From Mycolicibacter virginiensis (GTDB taxonomy: Bacteria > Actinomycetota > Actinomycetes > Mycobacteriales > Mycobacteriaceae), in contig NZ_CP092430.2 in NCBI RefSeq assembly GCF_022374935.2, positions 558,001-622,000 on the forward strand: a DNA stretch of 64,000 bases, written 5' to 3'. Under the pieces are notes generated by a model. That model did not search any database and had not been told where the DNA came from. It was given only the letters and a program-made list of their open reading frames with translations. Positions within the stretch are counted from its first letter, which is position 1. Every line of letters begins with the position of its first letter. Below, piece by piece: positions 6,319-30,810 of the stretch. A program made the position numbers and the translations under genes.

Positions 6319-7500
6319 GTGGCTGCGACCTCGGCGCTGACGCTCGCTGCGGCGTCTGCGATTCCTGCGCTGGCGGCAGGCGTGGCGGCCGGCGTGTGGC
6401 TGTCGCCGCGACTGGCCGAGCGACGCCGCAAGGCGGCGACCGAGCGATCCGGGATCACCGTTGCCGAGATGCTGCAGCAGATCGTGTCGCACGCCTCGCT
6501 GGGCATCGCGGTCGTGGACTCCCACCGCGACGTCGTCTACCTCAACGAGCGCGCCACCGAGCTGGGACTGGTGCACGGCCGGTTGCTCGACGACGAGGCC
6601 TGGGCGGCCGCGCAACGCGCACTGGCCGGCGACGACGAAGTCGTCTTCGACTTGACGGTGGCCAAGCGGGCTCCCGGGGCCACCCGGTCGGATCTGTCCG
6701 CCGTGCGCGGCTACGCCCGGTTGCTGTCGGAAGAGGATCGCCGGTTCGCCGTGGTGATCGTCGACGACCAGTCCGAGCAGGCCCGCATGGAGGCCAGCCG
6801 GCGCGACTTCGTGGCCAACGTCAGCCATGAGCTGAAAACGCCGGTGGGGGCGATGGGGCTGCTCGCCGAGGCGCTGTTGGCGTCGGCTGATGACCCCGAG
6901 GCGGTGCGGCCGTTCGCCGAGCGGGTGTTGGTGGAGGCCAACCGGCTCGCCAGCATGATCGGTGAGCTGATCGAGCTGTCCCGGCTGCAGGGTGCCGACC
7001 CGCTGCCGGACCTGGGCGTCGTCGACGTCGACGCGGTGGTCAACGAGGCGATCTCGCGGCACAAGGTGGCCGCCGACAACGCCGAGATCACGATCACCAC
7101 CGATGCGCCGAGCGGGCTGCGGGTGCTGGGCGACGAACCACTGCTGGTCACCGCCCTGGCCAACCTGGTGTCCAATGCGATCGCCTACTCACCGCACGGT
7201 TCGCCGGTGTCGATCAGCCGGCGTCGTCGCGAGGGGTTCATCGAGATCGCCGTGACCGACCGCGGCATCGGTATTGCGCCCAAGGACCAGCAGCGCGTGT
7301 TCGAACGGTTCTTCCGCAGCGACAAGGCCCGCTCGCGGGCCACCGGGGGCACGGGTCTGGGATTGGCGATCGTCAAACACGTGGCGGCCAACCACAACGG
7401 CACCATCACGTTGTGGAGCCAGCCGGGCACCGGATCTACGTTTACCTTGGCGATTCCCGCATACCAAGGCAGTGTGGACCAGGAGAAGGACGAGCAGTGA
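6319..7500 (+). CDS. senX3: Sensor histidine kinase SenX3 (phosphate sensing)
   Basis: 393 residues. The N-terminus has a hydrophobic segment (about residues 2-25), then a PAS-like domain (about 45-145, [16 protein letters not shown]). The dimerisation/phosphoacceptor motif [12 protein letters not shown] carries His170. ATP-binding boxes follow: N box [12 protein letters not shown]1 DRGIGIAP and G2 [12 protein letters not shown]. It phosphorylates RegX3 and, through the Pst system, controls the phosphate starvation response. GTG 6319 matches the family N-terminus. regX3 begins 52 nt downstream; the MIRU repeats found at this junction in the M. tuberculosis complex are absent. Confidence 0.96.
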
Positions 7501-7552
7501 TGACACCCACTATCGATAACGCAGAGGGTAGCTACGGCGAAGGGCAGCGCTG

Positions 7553-8236
7553 ATGACACATGTCTTGATCGTTGAGGACGAGGAATCGCTCGCCGACCCG
7601 TTGGCATTTCTACTGCGTAAAGAAGGTTTCGAGGCCACCGTGGTCGGCGATGGCACCGCCGCTTTGGCCGAGTTCGACCGGGCCGGCGCCGACATCGTGC
7701 TGCTGGACCTGATGCTGCCGGGGATGTCGGGCACCGACGTCTGCAAACAGTTACGCGCGCGTTCCAGTGTGCCGGTGATTATGGTCACTGCCCGCGACAG
7801 CGAGATCGACAAGGTCGTCGGCCTGGAATTGGGCGCCGACGACTACGTGACCAAGCCGTATTCGGCCCGTGAGTTGATCGCCCGCATCCGGGCGGTGTTG
7901 CGCCGCGGCGGCGACGACGAGGGCGGCGTCGGCGAGGGCGTGTTGGAGTCCGGCCCGGTGCGCATGGACGTCGAACGGCATGTGGTGATGGTGAACGGCG
8001 AGCAGATTACCTTGCCGCTCAAGGAATTCGACCTGCTCGAATACCTGATGCGCAACACCGGCCGTGTGCTGACCCGCGGTCAGTTGATCGACCGGGTCTG
8101 GGGTGCGGATTACGTCGGCGACACCAAAACGCTGGATGTCCACGTCAAAAGACTTCGGTCCAAGATCGAGGCCGATCCAGCCAATCCAGTGCACCTGGTT
8201 ACCGTGCGTGGCCTCGGTTACAAGCTGGAGGGCTAA
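7553..8236 (+). CDS. regX3: Response regulator RegX3 (OmpR/PhoB family)
   Basis: 227 residues, identical in length to M. tuberculosis RegX3. The receiver domain (about 1-118) has the acidic pair EDEE, phosphoacceptor Asp52 in LLDLMLPGMSG, the switch Thr in MVTARD and Lys in VTKPYSARELI. The C-terminal winged helix (about 130-227) ends KRLRSKIEADP and VTVRGLGYKLEG, typical for DNA recognition and the wing. It activates phosphate-scavenging genes and represses or activates others after phosphorylation by SenX3. It is in one operon with senX3. Confidence 0.97.
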   Translation: MTHVLIVEDEESLADPLAFLLRKEGFEATVVGDGTAALAEFDRAGADIVLLDLMLPGMSGTDVCKQLRARSSVPVIMVTARDSEIDKVVGLELGADDYVTKPYSARELIARIRAVLRRGGDDEGGVGEGVLESGPVRMDVERHVVMVNGEQITLPLKEFDLLEYLMRNTGRVLTRGQLIDRVWGADYVGDTKTLDVHVKRLRSKIEADPANPVHLVTVRGLGYKLEG

Positions 8237-8361: not shown

Positions 8362-8429
8362 GGTTGCCTACGGAATCCTTGGGCCCCACCCAGAACCCTT
8401 CTTCGCCAGTAACACGGGAGACGCGATCG

Positions 8430-15580
<7,151 letters not shown>

Positions 15581-15584
<4 letters not shown>

Positions 15585-18500
15585 CGGATCGTCCGGACGT
15601 GCCCACCGACCTCTCCAGCCTGTCGCCGGAGAAAAAGCGCGAGCTGCTTGCCCAGTTGCTGAGGGCCAAGGCGCAGGAAGCGGCATCCGAGCACGAGCTG
15701 TCCTATGGGCAGCGCTCGATGTGGTTCATGCACCGGCTGGCGCCCGACAGCGCGGCCTACACCGTCGCCTATGCCGGACGCATCGACGGCAGCCTGAACG
15801 TGCCGGCCCTGGAGCGGGCCGCGCAGGCGTTGGTGGACCGGCACCCGATGCTGCGGACCACCTACACCGAACGGGACGGCCAGCCCGTCGCCCTGGTCCA
15901 CGCGCACTGGCCGCTGCGGATCGCCGCTCACAGCATTGGTGCGGATGAGTCTGAACTCGACCAGTGGGTTCAGGCCGAGATCGACCGACCGTTCGACCTG
16001 CGCACCGGCCCGGTGCTGCGGATGACTCTGCTGGCGCGCCCGGACGACCACGTGCTGCTGCTGACGGTGCACCATATCGCCGTCGACTTCTGGTCCATCG
16101 ACATCATCCTCGACGAGCTGCGTGCGCTCTACGCCGCGGAACACGGCGGTGTCCCTCCAGAAGAGACCGCAGACCGCTACGTCGACTACGCCGCGCAGCA
16201 GTCCCGGATGCTGGCCGGGCCAGAGGGCGAGCGGCTTTGGGACTACTGGCACGAGACGCTCGGCGGCGAACTGCCGACCCTGGCGCTGCCCACCGATCGG
16301 CCGCGGCCCGCGATCCAGACCTACGACGGTGCGCTGCACCGGTTCAGCGTCGACGCCCAGGTCACCGCCGGGATCAAGCAGGTGGCGCGGACCGTCGGAG
16401 CGACGCCCTACATGACCCTGCTGGCGGCCTATGCGGTGCTTTTGCACCGCTACAGCGGGCAGGACGACTTGGTCATCGGTTCGCCGTTCGCCTGCCGCGA
16501 CCGGGCCGGGCTGATGGGCATGGTCGGCTACGTCACCAACCCGCTGCCGCTGCGCGTCGATGTGAGCGACGACCCGAGCTTTGCTGCGCTGCTGGGTCAG
16601 GTCAAAGACACCGTGCTGGGCGCGATCGGCCACCAGGAGTACCCCCTGCCGCTGCTCGTCGAGCGGCTGCGGCCGGTGCGCGACGCCGGGCGCACTCCGC
16701 TGTTCCAGGTGTCGTTCGCCTGGCAGCAGGTCCGGCTGTTCGAAGACGGCGCGGGAACCGGTGACCCCAGCGTCCTGCACCTGGAGACCCTCTACATCGG
16801 CCAGGGCGGTTCACCGTTCGACATCACCATGCAGGTTGGCGAGCAGGGCCCCGACGACGCCCGGGAGCTCCAGCTGGCCCTGCAGTACAACACCGACCTG
16901 TTCGACGCCGCGACCATCGAAGCGCTCGCGCAGCACTTCACGTTGCTGCTGACCGGGCTGGCCCAGCCCGGCGCGGCCCAGGCCCCGGTCTCGCAGCTGA
17001 CCCTGCTCACCGACGCCGAGCGCGCCGCACTGGCGGCCTGGAACGACACCGCGGTCGACTACGCGGTTTCTTCGGCGGCCCCTGGGACCTTGCACGAGAT
17101 GGTCGCCGCCAGCGCCGCGCGCACCCCGGACGCCGTCGCGGTCAGCTACGACGGCCGCGACCTCAGCTACGGCGAACTGGACCGGCGGGCCAACGGCCTA
17201 GCGCATCGCTTGCGCCAGTTCGGCGTTGGCGCCGGCCCGGGACCCGCCGTGGTTCCGGTGCTGCTCGAACGCTCCGAGGACCTGGTGATCGCGCTGCTCG
17301 GCGTGCTCAAGGCCGGCGGCGTGTTCCTGCCGCTGGATCCCGCGCAGCCCACCGGCCGGATGGAGGCCATGCTCGCCGACATCCCCGAGGCCCCGGTCTG
17401 TATCACCCACCGTGAACATCTGCCGCACGTGCCGGCGGGCTTCACCGGTGCCCGGCTCTGCCTGGATCAGGCGACTCCCGGCGAGGAGGCGTCACCCCCC
17501 GAAACCGGCACCACCTCAGGCGATCTGGCCTACCTGATGTACACCTCGGGCTCCACCGGGGCTCCGAAGGGCGCGCTGAACAGTCACGCCGGCATCCGCA
17601 ACCGGCTGTTGTGGATGCAGGACGCCTACCAGCTGACCGCCGAAGACCGGGTGCTACACAAGACCCCGATCAACTTCGACCCGTTCGTCTGGGAGATCTT
17701 CTGGCCGTTGACGGTCGGCGCACGGGTGGTGATCGCCAAACCCGAGGGGCACAAAGACGCCGCGTACCTGGCGCAAACCATCGTCGAACAGCGCGTCACC
17801 ACCATGCATTTCGTTCCCTCGATGCTGCGCCGATTCCTCGCGGAGCCCCAGGCGGCTGCCTGTACCGGCCTGCGCAAGGTGTTCTGCAGTGGCGAAGCGC
17901 TCACCGCCGACCTGCGCGATAGCTTCTTCGCTGCGCTGCCCGCCGAGCTGTACAACCTGTACGGCCCGACCGAAGCGGCCATCGACGTCACCCACTTCCA
18001 TTGCGAGCGTGGGGAAACCGAGCCGATCATCCCGATCGGAAAGCCGATCGCCAACATCTCGATCCACTTGCTGGACGCGGCGGGCAACCCGGTCCCGGTC
18101 GGGGTTCCCGGCGAACTGCACATCGGCGGCGTGGGCGTAGGCCGCGGCTACCTGAACCGACCCGAGGCCACCGCGGCAGCGTTCCTCGACGACCCGTTCA
18201 GTTCCGTTCCGGGTGCACTCCTGTACCGCACCGGCGACCTAGCCCGCTACCGGCCCGACGGCAACATCGAATACCTGGGCCGTCGCGACGACCAGGTGAA
18301 GATCAACGGCTTCCGCATCGAGCTCGGTGAGGTGGAGGCCGCGCTGGCCCAACACCCCGGTATCGCCGAGAACGCCGTGGTGGCACGCAAAGACGCCTCC
18401 GGCAACACCCAGCTGATCGCACACATCGTGCCGGTCGCTGCCACTCCCGGCACCGCTGAGCTGCGCCGCTTCCTGCTGGACTTGGTGCCGGCGGCAATGA

Positions 18501-20992
18501 TTCCCGCGATGTTCCGCACCACCGACTTGCTGCCGTTGTCGGCCAGCGGCAAGGTGGATCGTCGGGCGCTGCTCGCCCTCGACAAGGACCTCGACGCCGC
18601 ACCGGTGGAATTCGTTGCGCCCCGCGACGAGACCGAACAGGCGCTCGCCGAGATCTGGCGCGAGGTGCTCGACGTCGACCGGGTCGGCGTCACCGACGAC
18701 TTCTTCGCCCTCGGTGGTGCCTCCACCCAAGCGCTGGAAGTTGCGGTGCGCGTAGGGGAGCTCGGCCTGGAACTGCGGCCGGAGTCGTTGTTCGTCTACG
18801 GCACCATCGCCGAATTGGCCGCCGAGTTCGGCCCGATCGGCGGCGCCGGCAAGACCGAGCCGGCAGCAGACAAGCCCGCGGCGCAGCCCGAACCCGCGGT
18901 GGTCGCGCCCCAGCCGGCTGCAATGCCCAAACCCGCCCCGGCACCGGTGATCAAACCCGTGCAGAACGGTCCGGCGCGCAACATCGTAATCGAGAGCCTC
19001 GGCGTGTACCTGCCGCCGCGGGCGGTCTCCACCGAGCAGGTGCTGGCCGACTGCGTCAACGAGGTGAAGATCCCGCTGGAGCGACTCACCGGCATCAAGA
19101 ACCGCCGGATGGCCGGTCAAGACGAGTTCTCGATCGACTTGGGCCGCAAGGCGATTGCCGACTGTCTGTCGCGGTCGAGCTATGCCCCCGAAGAGATCGA
19201 CCTGGTCATCGCCTGCAACATCTCGCGCTGCGACGGCCCGGAGCACATGTTCACCTTCGAGCCGAGCACGGCGTCGCAGTTCCGTGACCAGCTGGGGCTG
19301 ACGGGCGCCGTCTGCTTCGACATCAACAACGCCTGCGCGGGCATGTTCACCGGTGTCAGTGTGGCCCAGGACTTCCTGAAGACCGGCCTGGTGCGCAACG
19401 CGCTGGTGGTCAGTGGCGAATACATCAGCCACATCACCGAAACCGCACAGCAGGAGATCGAAAGTGCGATGGACCCGCGGCTGGCCTGCCTGACCGTCGG
19501 CGACGCCGGCGCGGCCGCAGTGCTCGAACTCGGGCCCAACGACCGCGTCGGATTCCACGACCTGGACCTGGCCACCTTCAGTGAGTTCGCCAAGCTGTGC
19601 ATCGCCAAGGCCACCGACGGCCCGCACGGCGGCGCCATCATGGTCACCGACTCGGTCACTCAGACCGCGATCGCGGTAAAGCACTCGGTTCCGTATGTGG
19701 CGGCGGTTATGCAGCGGCACGGCTGGCGGCCCGAGACGGCCGATCAGCTGCTGATGCACCAGACTTCCGAGGCGTCGATCAACGACGCCATCTTGACCAT
19801 CAACCGGGTCTTCGGCGCCGGTGCCGCAAGCCGGGCCAACACCATCTGCAACCTCGCGGAACGCGGGAATACCGCCACCACAACGCATTTCGTTGCGTTG
19901 TATGACTACATCAACGCGGGCCGGATCAATTCCGGGGATAACGTCGTGCTGTCCATCACCGGCTCGGGACAGACCATCGGAACTGGCCTCTACACGTTCG
20001 ACGACCTGCCCGACCGGATGCGCCGGGCCGCGGGCGGCCAGGGCGGCCAGGGCACTCGCGCAGGCCGCGCCGGCGGGGTCCGGCGGGAACTCCCCGCGAC
20101 ACCACGGGTGCGCATCGAGGGCATCGGTCTTGCCCCCGAAGGGCAGACGCCGCCCAGTTCGATCCAGTTCGCCGTCGACGCCGCCACCGCCTGTCTGGCC
20201 GACAGCGGTGTCGAGCGCACCGACGTCGGGCTGGTGATTCACGCCGGCATCTACCGCGACGACTTCCTGTCCGAGCCGGCAGTGGCCACCCTGGTGGCCG
20301 GTGAGGTCGGGATCAACGCCGAGCCGGAGTCCGCGGACGCCCCCAAGACCTTCGCGTTCGACGTCCTCAACGGTGCGGTCGGTTTCCTCAACGGCTGCCA
20401 CGTCGCGGCCGGCATGATCGGTGCCGGGCGCACCGGACATGCCATGGTGCTGGCCTCCGAAGTGGAGAACAACACTCCGGAGAGCGGCTACCCGCGCAAC
20501 GGCATCTCCGAGACCGGGTCGGCAATCATGCTGAGCCCCAGTCACGGACCCGAAGGCTTCGGCCGGTTCGTCTTCGGTCACCACCCGGAATATCGGGGCG
20601 CGCTGGCCACCTACACCCAGGAGCGCGACGGCCGGATGTGGCTGCGGATCGACCGCGATCCGAACCTGGCCGCGATCTATGTGAGCTGCCTGCCGTCGTC
20701 GGTCAAGGAGCTGCTGACGCTAGAAGGGCTGGCACCCGAGGACATCTCGCTGGTGTTCCCGCCGTACCTGCCCGGTGTCGCGCTGGACGAGCTGGCCGCG
20801 CACATCGGCGTGGACCGCTCGCGGTTCGTCGACCTCGAGGCGCAGGGCCAGACCAGTGACCCATTCACCTCGGCGCTGCCCTACCAGATCGCCGACGCCC
20901 GCCGGCGCGGCCTGGTGAAGACCGGTGACGTTGCGCTGATCATGGCGGTCGGCTCGGGCGTCGAGGTCGGTTGCACGACCTACCGGTTCTGA
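15581..20992 (+). CDS. NRPS module fused to tandem KASIII domains (C-A-PCP-KASIII-pseudoKASIII)
   Basis: 1803 residues from GTG 15581, coupled to the PKS. Condensation domain about 20-450, with HHxxxD at His164-Asp169. Adenylation domain about 470-985; the specificity residues read by alignment to GrsA/EntF are D-P-W-H-F-S-L-I-D-K, close to the serine code DVWHFSLVDK. PCP with Ser1048 in GGAST. A Pro/Ala linker follows, then a FabH/OleA-like KASIII domain about 1134-1480 with Cys1252 (NNACAGM), His1393 (LMHQTSE) and Asn1430 (RGNTAT). After a Gly/Arg linker a second KASIII fold fills about 1508-1803, but its nucleophile position is Ala1599 and the His and Asn positions read Pro and Gln. There is no thioesterase or reductase. 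Predicted: acyl-Ser formation, then a carbon-carbon-bond-forming release. The last step is inference. Confidence 0.94.
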
Positions 20993-20997
20993 TCGGC

Positions 20998-21987
20998 ATG
21001 CGCGCATTCGTCACCGGGGGAACCGGATTCGTCGGCTCGAACCTGGTTGCCGCACTGCTGGAGCAGGGCATGCAGGTGCGGGTATTGCGCCGTTCGACCT
21101 CGCCGATGGCCGCGCTGGAGGGTTTGGACTGCGAGACCCGGATCGGCGACGTCAACGACGGCGTCGACGCGCTCACCGAGGCAATGGCCGACTGTGACTG
21201 GGTGTTTCACACCGCGGCGATCTCGGACTACTGGCGCTACCGGACGCAGACTCGGCTCTACCGCACCAACGTCGACGGCACCCGCGATATGGCCACGGCC
21301 GCCGCGCGCGCCGGAGTAAAACGTTTCGTCTACACCAGTTCGCTTGCCGCACTGGGCGTCCCGGACCGGGGGCATGAACTGGTCGAGACCGACGAGTTCA
21401 ACATCCGCCCGCGGCAGTTCCCCTACGGGCACAGCAAGCACCTGGCGGAGGCAGAGCTGCAGAAGTCCGCCGCGGCGGGTCTGCCTGTCGTGATCGTCAA
21501 CCCGTCGGTGGTCATCGGGCCCCGCGACGTCAACCGCATTGCCTCCGCGATGCTTGTCGAAGCCAAGCAGGGCCGGCTGTGGTTCGCCGCTCCCGGTGGC
21601 ACCAACTTCGTCTCCGTCGACGACGTGGTTGCCGGACATATCGCTGCCGCCGAACGCGGCCGGGTCGGGGAGCGCTACATCCTCGGTGGCGAGAACTTGT
21701 CGTTCCGTGAGGCATTCACCGGTGCCTGCGAGCTGTTCGGGCGCCCTGGGCCTTCGGTGATGTTGCCGCGCTGGTTCATTCCGGTGGCCGCGGCGGGAGT
21801 CAGCGTTGCCCGCGCCGTGGTGGGGCCGCGGCTGCCGATCGACGCTCGCCAGATGCGGTTGTCCACGGCTGAGATCTTCGCCGATGCCAGCAAGTCTCGT
21901 GAGGAGCTGGGTGTGCCGTTCACACCCTTCGCGACCGCGCTGCGGGCCGCCCACGACTGGTACCGCGACAACGGATATTTGGACTAG
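20998..21987 (+). CDS. Extended SDR (NAD-dependent epimerase/reductase, HpnA/OleD-like)
   Basis: 329 residues from ATG 20998, five bases after the NRPS stop. The N-terminal Rossmann motif is VTGGTGFVGSNL, the active-site Tyr-Lys pair is in FPYGHSKHLAE (YxxxK) and the catalytic Ser is in YTSSLAALG. Such extended SDRs include dihydroflavonol reductases, 3-beta-HSD-like enzymes, HpnA and the OleD beta-keto reductase. Position directly after a KASIII-ending assembly line suggests it reduces the ketone made at release. Start choice: the frame opens 27 nt earlier inside the NRPS gene, but the conserved fold begins at MRAFVTGG. Confidence 0.91.
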   Translation: MRAFVTGGTGFVGSNLVAALLEQGMQVRVLRRSTSPMAALEGLDCETRIGDVNDGVDALTEAMADCDWVFHTAAISDYWRYRTQTRLYRTNVDGTRDMATAAARAGVKRFVYTSSLAALGVPDRGHELVETDEFNIRPRQFPYGHSKHLAEAELQKSAAAGLPVVIVNPSVVIGPRDVNRIASAMLVEAKQGRLWFAAPGGTNFVSVDDVVAGHIAAAERGRVGERYILGGENLSFREAFTGACELFGRPGPSVMLPRWFIPVAAAGVSVARAVVGPRLPIDARQMRLSTAEIFADASKSREELGVPFTPFATALRAAHDWYRDNGYLD

Positions 21988-22210
21988 TCGACTCCGTCCA
22001 GTGCGGTGTGCCGGCGTTTGCTGAACCGCCGTTCACTTGGCTGCGTCAATTCGGGTGGGCCCGTAGGTAACTCGGCTTGGAAGTAATCGAGCAAAAAATT
22101 GACGAATGCGAATATCGGGGATGAGCGGCAGTGCTAACGTCCGCCTTGCTCAATTCTTAGTTGCGGCTCAGGCGGACGCGTGGGGTGTTTGCTTGGGCCG
22201 TATCTCAGCC

Positions 22211-22217
22211 AAGGAGG
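22211..22217 (+). promoter_or_regulatory. Strong Shine-Dalgarno deciding the PGRS gene start
   Basis: AAGGAGG, a full match to the anti-SD, lies 4 nt before GTG 22222. This fixes the start of the PGRS protein at VSERHRNG rather than at the in-frame upstream codon at 22180. Confidence 0.7.
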
Positions 22218-22221
22218 CCGT

Positions 22222-24441
22222 GTGTCGGAGCGTCACCGCAATGGGGAAGTGCGTTCGGGTCGTAGGCGTCGGGCGCTTGGTGCCGCGACATCGGTGGGAG
22301 CGTTTCTCGCGTTCGGAATGACGCCACTGGTGGCGACTCCCGCGCAGGCGGACTTCGACCTGTGGGACCCGCTGTCCTGGTTCGGCGCGGACACCAGCGA
22401 TACGGGACTGTCGCTCGGCCAGGAAGCCGACGTCGTGTCCGAGGTGTTGGTGGCCGGCAGCGCCGAGGCAGGAAACTGGTTGACCACCGCCTGGACGGCG
22501 TTCGATGAGCAGCTTTATAGCGCCATCTACGATCCGGTCCAGGCGATCATCGACAACCAGTCCAACTCCTGGTGGCTGGATCCGCTCAACGGCTTGTTCG
22601 CTATCGGCGACTCGTGCGGCATCGCGTGCAATGGTGCCGACGCCTACATCGATAGCGACAGCGGTCAGTTGATCGGGGCGCAGGACGGTGGCTGGCTGTT
22701 CGGCAACGGCGGCAACGGGATTGACGGCTCCGACGGTGGATCGGCCGGGATCTTCGGCGATGGTGGCGTCGGCGGTGCGGGCGCCACAGTGACTGTCGGC
22801 GGCGTGGTGGTGACCGGTGACGGTGGTGACGGCGGCATCGGCGGTCTGCTGATGGGTCACGGCGGTGCCGGTGGTGCGGGTGCGGCCGCGCGAATCGACA
22901 CGCTGGGCAATGTGGTTGCCGCGGGCAACGGCGGCAACGGCGGCGACGGGCGGACCTGGTTCGGCATCGGTAACGGCGGCAACGGCGGTGCCGGTGGCCA
23001 GGGGCTCGATGCTTCCGCCGAGTACCAGGCCACCATCGGCGGCAACGGCGGCAACGGCGGCAACGCCGGCATCCACACCGGTAACGGCGGCAACGGCGGA
23101 GCAGGCGGCAGCGGTGGCGCGGGCCTGACCGGATCCGAGGGCACCGGTGAAACTGGAACCGCCGGTGCCGAAGGCGGCAACGGCGGTAGCGGCGGCGGTG
23201 GGGCATTCCTGATCGGCAACGGCGGTAGCGGTGGAGCCGGTGGTCTCGGCGGCAACGGTGGGTCCGGCGGGGCCGGCGCCAGGGGGGCGGCAGGAACCTT
23301 TGCCGATGACGGCGACGGCAAGGGCGCCGCCGGCGGCAATGGCGGTTCCGGCGGAAACGGCGGTGCGGGTGGCCGGGGCGGTGACGCCGGCCTTGCGCAG
23401 AACTTCTGGAGCGGTGTCAACGGCGTCGGCGGCGTCGGCGGTGTCGGCGGCGCGGCCGGATCGGCCGCCGACGGCGGCCGCGGTGGCGACGGTGCGTGGG
23501 GCAGCGCAGGGCCTTCCGAACTCGGTGATCGGGCCGGCGGGGACGGCGGCAACGGAGGCAATGGCGGTGAGAACGGCATCGCGGGCGCTGGCGGTCTCGG
23601 CGGCAGCAACGGTGACGGCACCAAGGCGGCCAGCGGCGACGCCGGGCAGTCTGCCGGCCCGGCCGGAAACGGCGGCCGCGGCGGCAACGGCGGCTACGGT
23701 GCGGCGGGGACGGCCGACGGATATACCGGTGGCAATGGCGGCCGGGGTGGCGATGCGGGGAGTTCGGGGTTGTACGGGGGCGGCGGCGGCCACGGCGGCG
23801 GGGGCGGCTCCGGCTACAAGGGAATCGGCGGCAACGGTGGTAACGCCGGCGACGGAGGCGACGCCGTGAACGGGACCGGTGGCACCGGCGGCGCCGGTGG
23901 TGGCGGCGGTCCGTCGGCCTGGGGCGTGCCCGGCGGTAACGGCGGCAATGGTGGCAACGGCGGCAACGGGTTGTACGGCGGCGGCGGCGGGCCGGGCAAC
24001 GGCGCCAACGGCAATGGCGGCACCGGAGGCACCGGTGGAACCGGGGGCCGTGGCTCCAGCGGCAATGGCGGCGGAGCGGGCGGTGACGGCGGTAATGGCG
24101 GTGCCTTCTCCAACGAGTCCGGCGGCGCACCCGGCGGGATTGGCGGCACCGGTGGTGCAGGTTCGTCCAGCGGTGCCGGCGGCGCAGGGGGTAACGGAGG
24201 CGACGGCGGGGCGGGCGCGACCGAGTCGGGTGGCATCGGTGGCCGAGGCGGCAACGGCGGCACCGTTGGGCCCAACGGTGACGGCCGGGGTGGCGACGGC
24301 GGCACGGGAGGTAACCGGGGCCCGGATGGTTACGGCGAGGGCGGCAACGGCGGCGACGGCGGCAGCGATGGCACGCGCGGCGGCAATGGCGGGCCAGGCG
24401 GCGCGGATGGCACTCACGGAACCAACGGCGTTGATGGGTAG
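22222..24441 (+). CDS. Secreted PGRS-repeat protein without a PE domain
   Basis: 739 residues from GTG 22222. Residues 1-43 form an export signal with an Arg run (SGRRRRALGAATSVGAFLAF) and a cleavage site near TPAQA-DF; it may be Tat or Sec. Residues 44-160 form an acidic, Trp-containing domain unlike PE, ending in GGWLFGNGG. Residues 160-739 are Gly-Gly-X/Asn repeats (GGNGGNGG, GGAGG) of the PGRS type, with no C-terminal enzyme. PGRS domains are known as cell-surface Gly-rich beta/PGII structures of mycobacteria, normally delivered by PE through ESX-5. The signal and ADFD start resemble those of the three PGRS-GH5 proteins at 48-56 kb. The function is unknown. Confidence 0.86.
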   Translation: MSERHRNGEVRSGRRRRALGAATSVGAFLAFGMTPLVATPAQADFDLWDPLSWFGADTSDTGLSLGQEADVVSEVLVAGSAEAGNWLTTAWTAFDEQLYSAIYDPVQAIIDNQSNSWWLDPLNGLFAIGDSCGIACNGADAYIDSDSGQLIGAQDGGWLFGNGGNGIDGSDGGSAGIFGDGGVGGAGATVTVGGVVVTGDGGDGGIGGLLMGHGGAGGAGAAARIDTLGNVVAAGNGGNGGDGRTWFGIGNGGNGGAGGQGLDASAEYQATIGGNGGNGGNAGIHTGNGGNGGAGGSGGAGLTGSEGTGETGTAGAEGGNGGSGGGGAFLIGNGGSGGAGGLGGNGGSGGAGARGAAGTFADDGDGKGAAGGNGGSGGNGGAGGRGGDAGLAQNFWSGVNGVGGVGGVGGAAGSAADGGRGGDGAWGSAGPSELGDRAGGDGGNGGNGGENGIAGAGGLGGSNGDGTKAASGDAGQSAGPAGNGGRGGNGGYGAAGTADGYTGGNGGRGGDAGSSGLYGGGGGHGGGGGSGYKGIGGNGGNAGDGGDAVNGTGGTGGAGGGGGPSAWGVPGGNGGNGGNGGNGLYGGGGGPGNGANGNGGTGGTGGTGGRGSSGNGGGAGGDGGNGGAFSNESGGAPGGIGGTGGAGSSSGAGGAGGNGGDGGAGATESGGIGGRGGNGGTVGPNGDGRGGDGGTGGNRGPDGYGEGGNGGDGGSDGTRGGNGGPGGADGTHGTNGVDG

Positions 24442-24508: not shown

Positions 24509-25957
24509 CTAGCCGACCTGGGACAGCAGAGCTTCGGTCGGTGGGCGGCGCTGCGTCCACGGCTGTACCGATTCGATCTGCGCCGCCAGCGACACCAGGG
24601 TGGCCTCGTCGTTGGCCCGCGCCACCAGGTGCACCGCCTCGGGTACGCCGTCGGCGGCGATCCCGGTCGGCACTGAGATGGCCGGCTGACCGCTGTAGCA
24701 CTGGGGGAAGGTGAACGGGATGAACTTGAGCATCCGCAGCATCGCCCGGGTTGGCCCCAGGCCCTCGAAGTAGCCCACCCGCACCGGCGGGATCGCCAGT
24801 ACCGGAGTCATCAGGATGTCGAAGTCGGCGATCCTGCGCTGCGAGCGGGCGGTGATTCGGGGCTCCGCGGCGACCGCCCGGCGAGCCAACCAATCCGGGA
24901 CCAGTCGGCTGGTGCGAGCCTCGGCCTGCATACGCCGTTCCAGCAGTTCGGTTTTCGGGAGCCGTTCGATTTCGTGAGCGAACCCGTTCATGAACAGTGT
25001 GAGCACTGCGGCGATCCCCATGACCGGATAGACCGGGTCGCGCTCGATGACCTCGTGGCCCATCGAGCGCAACAGCTCTGCGGTTTCCAGCACGGGGCGG
25101 CGCACCTCGTCGCTGACGGGCACCGGCACAACGGGTTTGAAGGACATCGCGATCCGCAGCGGTCGCGGATGCGTCAGTAGTGCCTCCATCAGTGGCGGAG
25201 CCGGCGGCGGCGAGGGAATCTCGTCGTCGGGCTCGGGACCGGTCATCGCGTCGTGCAGCAGCGCCGCGTCCATCACGCTGCGGGCCAACGGGCCAATGTG
25301 GTTGAGCCCGTGGAACCGATATGCCCGCTCCGGCGACTCCTTGGTGCTGACCCGGCCGCGCTGGCCCTTCAGCCCGACCAGCCCGCAGCAGGCGGCCGGA
25401 ATGCGGACCGAGCCGCCGCTGTCGCTGCCGGTAGCTCCGGGCACCATGCCGGAGGCGACTGCCGCGGCTGAGCCGCCGCTGGAGCCGCCCGGGGTCCGGT
25501 AGAGATCCCACGGGTTGCGGGTCACTCCCCAGGTCGCCGATTCGCTAACCGGGTAGGCGCCGAACTCCGAGAGATGGGTCTTGCCGATGATCACCGCGCC
25601 GGCAGCCCGGAGGCGTCGCACCGCGGCGCTGTCTGCACTCGCCGGGCCGACGTCAATTCCGGTGCCGCACATCGAGGAAACACCCGCCACGTCGGTGTCG
25701 TCCTTGACCGCGATCGGCACACCGGCCAACGGCAGTGCTTCGCCGGCCGCCAGCCGCTGCTCGACGTGCGCCGCCTCGGCCATCGCCTGATCGCCCATCA
25801 CGGTGCGGAAGACGTTCAAAACCGGGTCAAGGCGGGCGATCCGATCCAGATACAGGGTCACCAGCTCGCGCGGCGACACCTCACGCGCGCGCACCAACTG
25901 CGCCAAGCGCGCGACGCCGGCGAAGGCCAAGTCATCATCGTGCGCGGCAGACATCAT
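24509..25957 (-). CDS. Amidase-signature family amidase
   Basis: 482 residues from ATG 25957 (MMSAAHDDD; the second ATG at 25954 is an equal choice). It has the full Ser-cisSer-Lys apparatus: Lys in PIAVKDDTDV, the cis-Ser in TPGGSSGGSAAA and the nucleophilic Ser in GSDSGGSVRIPA. No signal peptide is seen, so a cytosolic amide hydrolase is likely. Its length and motifs resemble mycobacterial AmiA/AmiB proteins; the substrate cannot be told. It is convergent with the PGRS gene and lies downstream of, but probably separate from, the flavin oxidoreductase/ABC genes because a hairpin and a dispersed repeat intervene. Confidence 0.93.
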   Translation of the reverse strand: MMSAAHDDDLAFAGVARLAQLVRAREVSPRELVTLYLDRIARLDPVLNVFRTVMGDQAMAEAAHVEQRLAAGEALPLAGVPIAVKDDTDVAGVSSMCGTGIDVGPASADSAAVRRLRAAGAVIIGKTHLSEFGAYPVSESATWGVTRNPWDLYRTPGGSSGGSAAAVASGMVPGATGSDSGGSVRIPAACCGLVGLKGQRGRVSTKESPERAYRFHGLNHIGPLARSVMDAALLHDAMTGPEPDDEIPSPPPAPPLMEALLTHPRPLRIAMSFKPVVPVPVSDEVRRPVLETAELLRSMGHEVIERDPVYPVMGIAAVLTLFMNGFAHEIERLPKTELLERRMQAEARTSRLVPDWLARRAVAAEPRITARSQRRIADFDILMTPVLAIPPVRVGYFEGLGPTRAMLRMLKFIPFTFPQCYSGQPAISVPTGIAADGVPEAVHLVARANDEATLVSLAAQIESVQPWTQRRPPTEALLSQVG

Positions 25958-26007
25958 TGCGTCCTTTCCCCCGCGGACAACAATACCCACCGTGCATTGG
26001 CGTAAAA

Positions 26008-26102: not shown

Positions 26103-27470
26103 CTAGTTCCCTGCCGCGGGTTCGATGTTGTGGTTCAAGGTGAACCGGTTGGCCGGGTCCAGGCGTGCCTTGAGTTCGGCGAGACGTTGATAGCCGGCGT
26201 CACCGAATGTCGCGCGGATGCGGTCCTGTCCTTCGTCGCCGACGAAGTTCAGGTAGGCGCTGTCCGGGCCCAGCGGCCGCAGGATCTCGAAGGCCTGCCG
26301 GGCCCATGCCGTGCAGCGCGCGCTCTCGGCGGGGTCGGTCCAGGTAGCCATCAAATGGATGATGTAGGGGTGATCGCGGGCGACGATGGCCGTCGACTCC
26401 GCCGGAACTCGGCTTGCGTACCCGCCGAGCCGGATCAGGTGCAGCCGGGTCTGCGCCGAGGGGCGCGACCGCCCCAGCAGGGCGATGCGCCGGATCGCCT
26501 CGTCGGTGAGCTCGGTGACGAACAGCGACTTCCAGTAGTTCAGCCAGCCGTAGGGCGCCGTGTAGTCCAGGGCCTGCTGCCAAGTCGAGTAGTCCAGCTT
26601 GTGCTGCACGGCCACCACCGGCTTGGCCGCCACCCCGCGAACGTTGAGCAGGGCGCTCACGTCGTCGCTGCCGACCGCATCGGTGCGCGTCGAACAGGCC
26701 AGCACATTGACCAGCGACTGGCCCGTGGTGAAGTCGGAGGAGAAGTCCAGGATGGACGCAAGGTGGTCGGGTGCGTTGTCCATCTGGGCGCGGAAGTGCT
26801 TCAGGGCCGCCTCGGAATCGGCGTCGGGGTAGGACTGCACGCCGGCCACCACACCGTTGATCGGGTGCAGGCGCAGCACGAACTGCGCCACGACGCCGAA
26901 GTTGCCGCCGCCGCCGCGCAGGCCCCACAGCACGTCGGCATTCTCGGTCTCACTGACCGTCAATACCTCGCCCGATGCGGTCACCAGGGTGGCGCCGATC
27001 AGGTTGTCGCAGGTCATGCCGTGGGCGCGGGAGAGCCACCCGATGCCGCCGCCGAGCGAGAATCCGCCGACGCCGGTGGTCGACACCACCCCGCCGGGGC
27101 AGGCCAGGCCATGCTTGCTGGTGACCGGGTCCACGTCGCCCCAGGTGGCGCCGGCGTCGACGTAGGCGATCCGGGACTGCGCGTCGACCCGCACTCCGCG
27201 CATCTGCGTCAGGTCGATGACGATGCCGCCGTCGGTGGCCGAGTGGCCGGCGACGCTGTGACCGCCGCTGCGCACCGCGATCTGGGCACCGGAGTCCACG
27301 GCATAGCGCACGGCGGCGACGATGTCGTCCTGCGAGCGGCACTGCAGTACCACGCGCGGCCGCTTGTCGATCAGACCGTTGAAGACTTGGCGCACCTCGT
27401 CGTAGCGGGCATCGCCCGGGTAGACGGCGTCGCCGGTGAAACCCGGCACGGTGGGGGTGGTGGCTGTCAT
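26103..27470 (-). CDS. FAD-linked oxidoreductase (berberine bridge enzyme-like)
   Basis: 455 residues. The N-terminal FAD_binding_4 (PCMH) domain shows AVRSGGHSVAGHS, whose first His is the usual 8-alpha attachment site for FAD, then GVVSTTGVGGFSLGGGIGWL and a Cys in GMTCDNLIGA. The C-terminal BBE motif YLNFVGDEG and LKARLDPANRFTLNHNI closes the fold. It should oxidise a sugar, alcohol or phenolic substrate using O2. There is no signal peptide. It lies 29 nt after the FtsX-type permease on the same strand, so it may be cotranscribed with the exporter. Confidence 0.92.
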   Translation of the reverse strand: MTATTPTVPGFTGDAVYPGDARYDEVRQVFNGLIDKRPRVVLQCRSQDDIVAAVRYAVDSGAQIAVRSGGHSVAGHSATDGGIVIDLTQMRGVRVDAQSRIAYVDAGATWGDVDPVTSKHGLACPGGVVSTTGVGGFSLGGGIGWLSRAHGMTCDNLIGATLVTASGEVLTVSETENADVLWGLRGGGGNFGVVAQFVLRLHPINGVVAGVQSYPDADSEAALKHFRAQMDNAPDHLASILDFSSDFTTGQSLVNVLACSTRTDAVGSDDVSALLNVRGVAAKPVVAVQHKLDYSTWQQALDYTAPYGWLNYWKSLFVTELTDEAIRRIALLGRSRPSAQTRLHLIRLGGYASRVPAESTAIVARDHPYIIHLMATWTDPAESARCTAWARQAFEILRPLGPDSAYLNFVGDEGQDRIRATFGDAGYQRLAELKARLDPANRFTLNHNIEPAAGN

Positions 27471-27499: not shown

Positions 27500-30031
27500 T
27501 CACTCGTCGCGGAGTTCGGTCGCCGGAGTGGACCGAGTGCTCTTCCAGGCGGGAATGATGGCCGCGAAAACCGCGGCGACGGTGGCCAGCACCGCGTAGA
27601 CCACCGCGTCGGTCCAGGGGAACACCAGCGGGGTGACCAGGCCGACGTTGACGACGGCTGCCCGCCGCACCGCCTCGGAGATGGCGATCGCGAGTACCGC
27701 GCCGAACAGTCCGCCGGCGGCTCCGGCGACGACGGCCTCGATGGTGGTGATGCTGAACACGCGCAGCCGGGTGGCACCCAGCGCCTGGATCAGCGCCACC
27801 TCGCGCCTACGGCGGATTCCGACCAGCAACAGTGTCGACAGCACCGAGATGAAGGCGATCGCGAGCAGTCCGTACTTCAGGGTGTTCAGCGGCGTGAGGT
27901 AGCGGCCGATGGAGGCCGCGATGTCGGCGGCGTAACCGTCGGTGTCCACCGCTGTCAGCGGCTGGTCGAACTGCGCGGCCTTGATGTTCTCGATGACCTG
28001 ACCGGCGCTGACCCCGGATTCGGGGGTGGCGAAGATCAGGCCGGCGGGCTGAGGACCGTAGATCTGCTCGGCGACCGCGTAGGGCATGTAGATCCGGCGT
28101 CCGCCGTATTCGGGCGTGGCCACAATGGTACCGATACTCATCGCCTGCGCGTCGAGTCCACTTCCAAATACAAGAGTGTCACCGATGTGGAGTTTCTTCT
28201 CGCGCGCCAGGACGCTGCCGATGACGACCTGATTGGCTTTCTGGCTCGCCTCGGGGGATTGCCCGGCGAGTAATCCGAACGGAAATGTCGGCCGATCCTG
28301 CGCCTGAATATGCGCCAACGATCCGTCTTTGAGACTGATCTCGATTTCAGCCATCCGCTCGGTCTTTTCCACTCCGGCCACGGAGTTCAGTTTGTTGACC
28401 GTCTGCGGAGCGAATCGGGCATCAATGGGCCCGTAATCGGCGAACTGTGTCGTGGTGATGGCAATGCGGCCGTCCGCCTGCGATTCGGCGACCTTGGTGG
28501 CGCCGATATGGATCGCCACCAGGAATCCGGACAGGAGGATCGCGACCACGACGGGCACCGCGATAGCTCCGGAGATGGCCGCGGTACGTGACCGGTCCGA
28601 GCGCAGCGCGTTGAGCGCGATGGTGAGCGTGGCCCCGCTCGACTTGTCCGGCCGCGGGCGCAGGCTGGTGATCGCCTGCGCGCTCAAGTACGCCGTGGCC
28701 AGCAGGAGACCGATGAGGGCGACCACCGCCCCGGCGTCGGCGATGATGGCCTGCCAGGCCACCAGAGCCCCGGACAGCGTGGCCAGCCGCGCCGCGATCA
28801 CGCCGCTCAGCCCGATCGCGAGCAGCAGCAGCGCCTTGAACCAGATCTTGCGCTGCGTGGTCTGTTCCTGGGCCGCTCTACCCGAGAGTTCGGCCGCGAT
28901 GGGAGTGTTGGACGCCGACAGCGCGGGGCCGATCGCCGCACCCACCGCCAGCAAGATGCCGGCCAGCACGCCGACCACCAGGATCGCCGGCTTGAGGATC
29001 ACCGGGACGGTGACGCCGACAAAGCGTTCGGTCAGCTCACTGGCGCTGGCCACGATCGGTTCGGAGATCACGATGCCGGTCAGCACACCCATCGCCGAGC
29101 CCACCGCACCCAACAGCGCAGCCTCGCTGAGGAATCCGGTCATGATCGACGCCGGCGAGGCCCCCAATGCCGACGCGATCGCGATCTCGCGTCGGCGCTC
29201 TTCCACCGAGAGGCGGGTGATCTGGGTGATCAGGATGACCCCGACGCCGATCGAGATCAGCGCGAAGATCCCCAGCAGGGGTAGCAGCACGTCGTTGACG
29301 TTGTAGCCCTTCGCGGGCTCGCTGCGGGGCTGCACGCTGTAAGTGGGCCCAAGCGTGGTCTTCAACCGCTGCTGGACCTCATCGGCCTTGGCGTCCTTAT
29401 CCAAGGTCACATACAGCATGTCCACCCGGTCGCCGCGGGCGAACTGCACCTTCGCCATGCTCAGCGGCAGCACCGCCACCAGGCCGTTGTTGACGTCGTC
29501 GAGGTCGGCTACCCGCTGGAACTTCTCCACCGACAGCTGCCCGACATCGGTGACAAGGGTCGCCGAGGCGTCCAGGGAGTCGCCCAGGGTCTTCGAGATT
29601 GCCGGCGGGGGTTCGGCCTGCCCGGTCTGGCAGACCTTCGGGTCGACGATCCACTGAGCGGAGCAGTCCACGCCCAGGCCCAGTCCGAAGCTTTCCTTGC
29701 CGTCGTTGCGGATCATGGTCACCCCGCGGATGACCGGCACCACGGCGGCCACCCCGGGCACGGCCCGGGAGTCTTCGACGACGGCGGGACTGATGCCGCC
29801 GCGGGTGGCCGCTCCGACCACGCGCAGCGGGGCGGGCCCGGCGATCTGGTAGCCGACGTCTTCGACGGCCTTGGAGACGCTGGTGACCTCGATCATGACG
29901 GCCACGACGACGGCCACACCGCCGCCGAGTGAGAATGCCGCCAGTGCGGCCCGGAATGCGTGTTTACGGACGGCGCGGAAGTTGATTATCCGCAGCAGGC
30001 CGAATGTCGCGGCTAATGTTCCGCGAGCCAT
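27500..30031 (-). CDS. FtsX/MacB-type ABC exporter permease
   Basis: 843 residues with two FtsX modules. An N-terminal membrane segment (ALAAFSLGGGVAVVVAVM) is followed by a large extracytoplasmic domain with a Cys pair (VDCSAQWIVDPKVC). Then come a membrane bundle near 260-370, further helices at 400-460, a second extracytoplasmic domain, and a C-terminal FtsX bundle (GLLAIAFISVLSTLLLVGI onward). This duplicated type exports lipids, peptides or drugs, or acts in lipoprotein handling. The start overlaps the ATPase gene by 19 nt, so the two are translationally coupled. The substrate is unknown; export of the nearby PKS-NRPS lipid is a possibility only. Confidence 0.93.
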   Translation of the reverse strand: MARGTLAATFGLLRIINFRAVRKHAFRAALAAFSLGGGVAVVVAVMIEVTSVSKAVEDVGYQIAGPAPLRVVGAATRGGISPAVVEDSRAVPGVAAVVPVIRGVTMIRNDGKESFGLGLGVDCSAQWIVDPKVCQTGQAEPPPAISKTLGDSLDASATLVTDVGQLSVEKFQRVADLDDVNNGLVAVLPLSMAKVQFARGDRVDMLYVTLDKDAKADEVQQRLKTTLGPTYSVQPRSEPAKGYNVNDVLLPLLGIFALISIGVGVILITQITRLSVEERRREIAIASALGASPASIMTGFLSEAALLGAVGSAMGVLTGIVISEPIVASASELTERFVGVTVPVILKPAILVVGVLAGILLAVGAAIGPALSASNTPIAAELSGRAAQEQTTQRKIWFKALLLLAIGLSGVIAARLATLSGALVAWQAIIADAGAVVALIGLLLATAYLSAQAITSLRPRPDKSSGATLTIALNALRSDRSRTAAISGAIAVPVVVAILLSGFLVAIHIGATKVAESQADGRIAITTTQFADYGPIDARFAPQTVNKLNSVAGVEKTERMAEIEISLKDGSLAHIQAQDRPTFPFGLLAGQSPEASQKANQVVIGSVLAREKKLHIGDTLVFGSGLDAQAMSIGTIVATPEYGGRRIYMPYAVAEQIYGPQPAGLIFATPESGVSAGQVIENIKAAQFDQPLTAVDTDGYAADIAASIGRYLTPLNTLKYGLLAIAFISVLSTLLLVGIRRRREVALIQALGATRLRVFSITTIEAVVAGAAGGLFGAVLAIAISEAVRRAAVVNVGLVTPLVFPWTDAVVYAVLATVAAVFAAIIPAWKSTRSTPATELRDE

Positions 30032-30810
30032 GTCACATTATTTGCCGCGTGAGCCATTCCGCTGTCGGTCTCAACTTCACCGTCGAGCAATGAAATCAGA
30101 CGAGGGGCGTCGTCAGCTATTTTCCGGTCGTGGGTCACCAGAACAATTGTCTGGCCGGCTGCATTCAAGTTATACAACGCGTCAATGACCCGTTGGCCAT
30201 TTACGGTGTCGAGATTGCCGGTCGGCTCGTCGGCGAGAATCACGTCGGGCTTCATGAAAAGCGCCCGGGCAACGGCCACGCGCTGTTGTTCGCCGCCGGA
30301 CAATTCCGACGGGACGCGCTTGGACTTGGCGGCCAGGCCGACCTGGTCGAGCAGGCTCATCGCATGCGCGTGCTGGGCGCGGCCGGACTTACCCGCCAGC
30401 AGGCCCGGGAGCATCACATTCTCGACTACTGAAAGGCCCGCCAGAAGGTTGAAAGCTTGGAAGACGTAGCCGAGTGTCTGACATCGCACAGTGGCCAGCT
30501 GCTTGCGGGAGAGCTGCGAGACGCTCTGGCCGTTGATGAGGACGTCACCACTGGTCGGCATGTCCAACAGTCCGAGGATGCTCAGCAGGGTGGACTTACC
30601 CGAACCCGATGGGCCGACCATGGCGACGAATTCGCCGCGAGTTATCTGGATATCGATGTTGCGCAAAATCGGCGTGGCAGTATCGCCCTCGCCGAACTGT
30701 TTGTTGAGTTTGCGCGCTTCAAGGACCACAGGAGGCCTAAGAACGACCGGCGGCGTGTGTCCGTTCCGGTTGAGCTCCATATCCACGGTATGCATCTCGG
30801 TCCTGATCAT
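30013..30810 (-). CDS. ABC transporter ATP-binding protein (MacB/LolD type)
   Basis: 265 residues. Walker A is GPSGSGKSTL, the Q-loop is in GYVFQAFNLLAG, the signature is LSGGEQQRVAVARAL, Walker B is VILADEPTGNLD and the H-loop is LVTHD. The ADEPTGNLD form is typical of the MacB/LolD group that pairs with FtsX permeases. It overlaps the permease start by 19 nt. ATG 30810 is preferred because GGAG precedes it; ATGs at 30795 and 30780 are alternatives in a poorly conserved leader. Confidence 0.94.
   Translation of the reverse strand: MIRTEMHTVDMELNRNGHTPPVVLRPPVVLEARKLNKQFGEGDTATPILRNIDIQITRGEFVAMVGPSGSGKSTLLSILGLLDMPTSGDVLINGQSVSQLSRKQLATVRCQTLGYVFQAFNLLAGLSVVENVMLPGLLAGKSGRAQHAHAMSLLDQVGLAAKSKRVPSELSGGEQQRVAVARALFMKPDVILADEPTGNLDTVNGQRVIDALYNLNAAGQTIVLVTHDRKIADDAPRLISLLDGEVETDSGMAHAANNVTWLAEH

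Follow-up and report, generated by a model that had tools for sequence, protein, structure and literature searches.

The window, as we call the whole 64,000-nucleotide stretch of Mycolicibacter virginiensis DNA analysed here, carries a polyketide synthase (PKS) gene that overlaps the start of an NRPS gene by 4 nt. A reductase gene follows on the same strand, and an amidase, an oxidase and permease genes lie on the opposite strand.

8364..15584, + strand: FAAL-ACP-KS-AT-KR-ACP polyketide synthase, 2406 aa (Pfam domains)
15581..20992, + strand: NRPS with C-A-PCP-KASIII-KASIII architecture, 1803 aa (Pfam)
15692..17032, + strand: NRPS condensation (C) domain, residues 38-484 (PF00668, 323 bits)
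17108..18574, + strand: NRPS adenylation (A) domain, serine-type code (Pfam; code alignment with EntF)
18638..18823, + strand: NRPS peptidyl carrier protein (PCP), Ser1048 codon at 18722-18724 (PF00550, 38.8 bits)
18980..20014, + strand: KASIII-1, catalytic (profile matches, residue alignment, fold matches)
19259-19261, 19334-19336, 19757-19759 and 19868-19870, + strand: KASIII-1 codons Glu1227, Cys1252, His1393 and Asn1430
20081..20989, + strand: KASIII-2, triad lost, LstB-like (profile matches, residue alignment, fold matches)
20273-20275, 20375-20377 and 20759-20761, + strand: KASIII-2 codons Glu1565 (OleA Glu117-like), Ala1599 and Pro1727
20998..21987 (alternative start TTG 20971), + strand: extended SDR reductase (HpnA 286 bits, cut-off 367.65)
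24509..25990, - strand: amidase (PF01425)
26103..27470, - strand: BBE-type FAD oxidase (PF01565/PF08031)
27500..30810, - strand: FtsX-like permease and ABC ATPase (PF02687, PF00005)

In Pfam the NRPS frame matches C, A and PCP families, ACP_syn_III and two ACP_syn_III_C stretches. A profile search of the whole genome, a single contig of 4.98 Mb, placed both C-terminal KASIII matches within this frame (41 and 40.1 bits, cut-off 26.6). Together with the residue alignment described below, the Pfam matches confirm what an earlier note on this DNA had read from the letters, that the NRPS ends in an intact KASIII fused to a KASIII whose triad is lost. The closest named proteins among the matches listed are from Mycolicibacter, with the KASIII region at 98% to an M. 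minnesotensis record. The PCP serine is present in all 121 rows of our NRPS family alignment, which comprises the window protein and the best 120 of 485 homologues.

By its domains the FAAL-PKS is predicted to activate a fatty acid and to extend it once, giving a 3-hydroxyacyl-ACP; its AT domain carries the motif VASH, which may be methylmalonyl-like. E. coli K-12 uses EntF to activate serine. In one alignment the window A-domain code reads DPWHFSLIDK and that of EntF DVWHFSLVDK, and by this EntF-like code the window module is predicted to activate serine. A serine-type code occurs in 90 of the 121 family rows, one of them partial; DVWHISLID is found at loci L036, L039 and L085, and DVWHISLVD at L084. 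Serine use is not invariant across the family, as 31 of the 121 rows have other codes: 28 read DAAH(T/S)GEITK, the code of a second homologue group that probably uses another amino acid, and three differ otherwise. Likewise, Bacteroidota NRPSs read DILQLGMIW or DILQLGMVW, presumably glycine-like codes, and the A domain at L086 reads DLFNAALVY, which we assume to be alanine-like.

A scan of named genomes gave 41 loci, namely 31 NRPS-fused loci (L008-L036, L038 and L039), 4 stand-alone KASIII tandems (L037, L040, L041 and L042) and 6 weak single matches. A homologous PKS lies directly upstream of the NRPS in 31/31 fused loci. The FAAL part of this PKS extends beyond the end of most loci and is missing from the 1507-aa PKS frame of L034. 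The SDR of the window starts either at ATG 20998, just past the NRPS stop, or at TTG 20971, overlapping the NRPS. HpnA and SdmB models fit it better than the OleD model (99.4 bits, cut-off 580), and it is probably the keto-reductase of the released product. It is not a universal neighbour: a copy of at least 70% identity adjoins the NRPS in only 23 of the 31 fused loci. L024, L030, L031 and L032 have a different SDR (29-32%) nearby, and none was found in the fetched flanks of L034, L035, L036 and L039.

The amidase is present in the fetched flank of 19 fused loci and the BBE-type oxidase in 18 of the 31, both counts being lower bounds because six contigs end within ~2.6 kb of the NRPS. In L026, L027, L028 and L038 the oxidase gene lies on the NRPS strand after the SDR, and in L030 and L032 directly after the NRPS. 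The permease occurs in 13/31 fused loci; at L034 and L035 its gene comes directly after that of the NRPS. Tentatively, the amidase may serve tailoring or turnover of an N-acyl amide, the oxidase might tailor the product, and the permease and ABC ATPase could export it. Genes for a histidine kinase and a response regulator (window 6319-8236), possibly the regulator of the cluster, shortly precede the FAAL-PKS and share its strand. Between SDR and amidase, window 22168-24441 holds long overlapping ORFs on both strands, and the + strand ORF there matched no Pfam or NCBIfam family. A genome-wide profile search found no OleC over the cut-off in the window genome (best 166.7 bits against 478), so an OleABCD olefin or beta-lactone product is disfavoured for this organism. 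The best OleB match is 34% identical to the OleB-like protein of L037 and lies far from the cluster.

Fold and catalytic residues of the two KASIII halves

Both halves have a KASIII fold in the predicted model and in fold matches, which disposes of a non-KASIII fold for the second domain. A one-chain model of the pair reached a pTM of 0.92 and suggests a fixed K1-K2 arrangement. By sequence, the best PDB E-values of KASIII-1 belong to FabH enzymes, not OleA, with a weak match to PqsC; the fold matches are near-tied, so that FabH, OleA, PqsD and PqsBC chains are not separated by score. PqsBC and KS-CLF are paired ketosynthase subunits of which one lacks a full active site, and the earlier note had likened the KASIII pair to both. 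Pfam finds only PF08541/PF08545 in the pair and no PF00109/PF02801-type ketosynthase match, which rules out kinship with KS-CLF; for PqsBC there is the weak PqsC match, and PqsBC chains are among the near-tied folds.

Residue alignments distinguish the two halves. Cys1252, His1393, Asn1430, Glu1227 and Glu1565 are each invariant in 121/121 NRPS rows, and the same five residues are found in 120/120 stand-alone tandems (the best 120 of 1023 clusters at E <= 1e-60), so the triad claimed for KASIII-1 is kept throughout. In KASIII-2 the Cys position holds A, S or P and the His position P, A, G, S or L across the NRPS rows, while the 120 stand-alone tandems have S (90), A (29) or T (1) at the former and P (120) at the latter. 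The claimed loss at Ala1599 and the proline thus extends to every one of the 121 NRPS rows and 120 stand-alone tandems. A Pro follows the Glu of KASIII-1 and that of KASIII-2 in 240 of the 240 tandems aligned. Likewise, in a divergent set of 26 KASIII-1/KASIII-2 pairs (18 tandem, 8 split), every KASIII-1 keeps the triad and Glu-Pro (26/26), and every KASIII-2 keeps Glu-Pro (26/26), while 0/26 retain the triad Cys or the triad His. A Cys at +1 of the lost catalytic position occurs in 0/240 tandems. Among the 8 split KASIII-2 proteins the picture is less clean: six (L067, L068, L069, L071, L072 and L073) do have such a Cys, though no His at the His position. When numbering begins at the first start codon, the Glu comes at position 59 in 5/5 lone KASIII-2-like ORFs examined.

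Alignment by HMMER places the KASIII-2 Glu-Pro on OleA 'YLEPST', residue 117 of chain 4kti, and OleA residue 143 (the C143A site of that chain) on Ala1599. According to passages of PMC4578411, OleA Glu117 of one monomer enters the pocket of the other and acts as base, PpyS E105A is inactive, and MxnB/CorB have Val at the Glu position. In the OleA alignment of PMC7064751, Pro comes directly after Glu117 with just two exceptions. Excerpts of PMC12141560 give C128/H271/N305 as the catalytic residues of LstA and report that LstB E60A abolishes LstAB activity. An MxnB/CorB-type KASIII is ruled out here, since all rows aligned have Glu, not Val. As Glu1227 of KASIII-1 is equally invariant, conservation alone has no power to single out Glu1565; the argument for this putative base is one of lineage and position. 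Conservation of at least 97% in both groups is reached at 41/303 positions of KASIII-2 versus 76/346 of KASIII-1. An LstAB-type division of labour predicts just such a half, devoid of its own triad but with the partner-site Glu retained. Calling the second KASIII dead, as had been done, therefore suits its Cys-His-Asn triad but not the predicted cross-subunit Glu, which is retained.

Fused, stand-alone and split forms of the family

The C-A-PCP-KASIII-KASIII architecture is not a one-off, as the 31 fused loci and the Chloroflexota copies show. Fused carriers include Nocardia amamiensis and Thermosporothrix hazakensis (L036). Among 396 genomes of the phylum the full tandem is found only in the window genome; 8 others have a KASIII-1-like gene, adjoined by a KASIII-2-like ORF in 8/8 of these actinobacterial loci. 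Within the genus, 118 of 297 genomes match at E <= 1e-60. Thirty-two of them hold 33 full-length tandems, 32 within open frames of at least 1762 aa and the remaining one near a contig start; the other 86 have KASIII-1-like matches only. Four of 201 Chloroflexota genomes match, three with the ~1800-aa form (one being the genome of L036) and one with a 684-aa frame. Two of 296 Bacteroidota genomes match, both with a stand-alone tandem, one being that of L037. Stand-alone KASIII-KASIII fusions of ~672 aa are widespread, with 1023 clusters at E <= 1e-60, and the organism names given among the best 120 are Bacteroidota. C-A-PCP-KASIII-KASIII is thus a conserved family in two phyla, and its parts occur as separate proteins in a third.

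Stand-alone tandems beside FAAL and OleB/C/D-like genes lie at:

L037:9959-12001
L041:9929-11992
L083:9140-11137

The Bacteroidota loci L037 and L041 combine the tandem with FAAL, OleC, OleD (416 and 417 bits, cut-off 580) and an OleB-like hydrolase, which scores 171 and 168 bits against a haloalkane dehalogenase model (cut-off 241). Their OleC proteins score 700 and 710 bits against PRK09274 (cut-off 478) and 617-634 bits against olefin beta-lactone synthetase models (cut-offs 850 and 900). L037 also has a luciferase-like oxidase and a P450. Genome G804 (L083/L087) has FAAL, an oxidase, a P450 and OleB/C/D-like genes ~52% identical to those of L037, and C-A-PCP NRPSs of ~1084 aa with LGGAS near the end lie close to the G804 and L041 clusters (L087, L088). 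OleB/C/D genes do not stand beside every stand-alone tandem; they were found with L037, L041 and G804. They were not seen at L086, L040 is a 5.3-kb contig, and at L042 an SDR and a GH3 protein take their place. In this last locus (L042:5565-10375, Saprospiraceae) the tandem adjoins a short-chain dehydrogenase and a GH3-family acyl-amido synthetase, which suggests another supply route for an amide-linked chain. At L086:1783-11336 (genome G1046, Chloroflexota), FAAL, KS, C, A and PCP motifs share one protein of 2516 aa, which terminates at the PCP, and the next gene, overlapping it, is the KASIII tandem; this is a natural split of the fused architecture. Together the fused and separate-protein loci show that the chain of FAAL, PKS, C-A-PCP and KASIII pair recurs in both forms.

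KASIII-1-like genes are frequent in mycobacteria that do not belong to the fused group, and the examined ones are LstAB-like split pairs. Split KASIII-1/KASIII-2 pairs of mycobacteria lie at:

L075:7737-9699
L077:7707-9675
L081:7134-9114

At L077 and L081 the same strand also has genes of ~510 and ~760 aa, and a same-strand protein there presumably starts like a universal stress protein. Eight split-pair regions were fetched, five of them from the 8 genomes of the phylum search. The pairs at L079 and L080 adjoin OleC-like (42% and 35% identity to the L037 protein) and OleD-like genes (38% and 35%), and none were seen in the other 6 of 8 regions. KASIII trees do not support the NRPS-fused form as one clade. 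By its KASIII-1, Thermosporothrix clusters with the stand-alone tandems of Bacteroidota (91/92), whereas the Nocardia KASIII-2 has no firm place (37/47). A branch with 100/100 divides split from tandem forms, in trees where several branches are long.

Proposed release chemistry and possible products

NRPS chains are usually released by thioesterase, reductase or cyclising domains. An active/inactive KASIII pair in an NRPS is most simply read as a device for C-C chain release. The earlier note had predicted as much; the pair is indeed built into the NRPS, and we infer the C-C bond from analogy with LstAB and OleA, which appear to be the closest functional models rather than KS-CLF. LstB is not known to have a Cys-His-Asn triad. 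Like the pair described here, LstA-LstB unites a Cys-His-Asn KASIII with a diverged KASIII-like partner bearing an essential Glu, and it joins two acyl chains, one 3-hydroxylated (excerpts of PMC12141560), as the fused pair is proposed to do. The likeness is drawn from published residues and the position of the Glu. LstAB, however, consists of two free proteins acting on acyl-CoAs, whereas both halves here sit on one NRPS chain, so one substrate is expected to be PCP-bound. OleA of the Xanthomonas olefin pathway shares the KASIII fold, Cys-His-Asn and the cross-dimer Glu-Pro, but its homodimer has two active sites, whereas the fused pair has lost one of them and would act on an aminoacyl chain. 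The PpyS/PyrS pyrone synthases share head-to-head condensation and the same Glu class but are free-standing, modelled as homodimers and form pyrones (passages of PMC4578411). MxnB/CorB are also KASIII-like and join two assembly-line acyl chains; unlike the Glu-bearing, NRPS-fused pair, they are free-standing, of the FabH clade and have Val.

We think it fairly likely that the terminal pair acts as a covalently fused KASIII dimer of the LstA-LstB/OleA type, with release by C-C bond formation, loss of CO2 and reduction by the SDR. The FAAL-PKS would supply a 3-hydroxyacyl chain, which the C-A-PCP module would couple to L-serine, and KASIII-1 would accept the N-(3-hydroxyacyl)-seryl chain from the PCP onto Cys1252. 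KASIII-2 would lend Glu1565 across the interface, and this residue would deprotonate another fatty acyl thioester, probably an acyl-CoA, at its alpha carbon. The resulting enolate would attack the bound seryl thioester without prior decarboxylation, and the chain would leave as an alpha-alkyl-beta-keto acid or thioester. The attack could also run the other way, from the alpha carbon of serine, but this seems less natural for a PCP-delivered chain. With no OleC over the cut-off in the genome, the beta-keto acid would lose CO2 to give an N-acyl amino ketone with a 3-keto-ceramide skeleton; such a loss is proposed for the beta-keto acid of coralinone in a passage of PMC10979478. The product, HOCH2-CH(NH-acyl)-CO-CH2R, would then be reduced by the neighbouring SDR.

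The same C-C bond might form with the carboxyl kept, the SDR reducing the 2-alkyl-3-keto acid in OleD fashion to a mycolate-like alpha-alkyl-beta-hydroxy acid or a serine-hydroxyl lactone. We regard this as rather unlikely: OleD-type reductases do take 2-alkyl-3-oxoalkanoates, and in Bacteroidota the tandem is accompanied by OleC-/OleD-like genes, but the window SDR scores just 99.4 bits against OleD, and with no OleC over the cut-off (166.7 of 478 bits) nothing obvious in the genome would activate the keto acid further. Also improbable is a FabH-like decarboxylative extension, in which malonyl-CoA and the seryl thioester would yield an amido-beta-ketoacyl-CoA, cyclised to a tetramate or pyrrolinone or else reduced. 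FabH enzymes are the best PDB sequence matches, and the Cys-His-Asn triad fits either chemistry; against this, an LstB-like partner does not belong to the FabH pattern, and the OleA-117 Glu-Pro, an OleA/PpyS-type mark by passages of PMC4578411, is invariant in both halves.

Were KASIII-2 purely structural or a decaying remnant, with KASIII-1 working with itself, its lost triad and lower conservation (41/303 versus 76/346 positions) would be accounted for. A remnant would, however, hardly be expected to retain the KASIII fold and Glu-Pro in 240/240, nor does it suit a domain that persists across phyla in fused, stand-alone and split forms, and we find this explanation very unlikely. Some KASIII-like enzymes (CerJ-type) acylate hydroxyls. 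Release of an ester or amide by such acyl transfer to an alcohol or amine is very unlikely here: acylating ketosynthases are mentioned for cervimycin biosynthesis in passages of PMC4578411, but the full triad and the Glu are invariant, and family members stand in OleB/C/D-like clusters, where C-C condensation is expected.

The decarboxylating condensation that we favour would lead to the same skeleton as the bacterial ceramide route (Spt, bCerS and CerR). Spt joins serine to an acyl thioester by PLP chemistry, with loss of the serine carboxyl; the carboxyl carbon lost there would stay as C3 in the route proposed here. CerR reduces the N-acylated keto intermediate in bacteria (excerpts of PMC11087976). 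It is possible, though on balance doubtful, that the cluster builds ceramide-like lipids (N-acyl sphingoid amino ketones and alcohols) on a modular assembly line and needs no serine palmitoyltransferase to do so. If so, the serine, glycine-like and alanine-like codes found in different phyla would lead to counterparts of sphinganine, 1-deoxymethyl and 1-deoxy bases. NRPSs would also gain, in the fused LstAB-type pair, a new, transplantable C-C-forming release module.

Heterodimeric and Glu-dependent KASIII enzymes are already known; the fused pair as an NRPS terminus may be the new element. Neither an NRPS with a paired-KASIII ending nor its product is named among the open-access matches listed, and a check for a known product of the architecture likewise turned up none assigned there. 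A terminal pseudo-heterodimeric KASIII that joins a peptidyl thioester to a second lipid chain would add to NRPS release chemistry, and a catalytic role for a 'dead' domain would become testable through one residue, Glu1565. As the same parts recur in three phyla, the rule could be used for genome mining. For mycobacteria, whose biology is dominated by lipids, the cluster would predict an uncharacterised lipid class, possibly with a ceramide-like skeleton.
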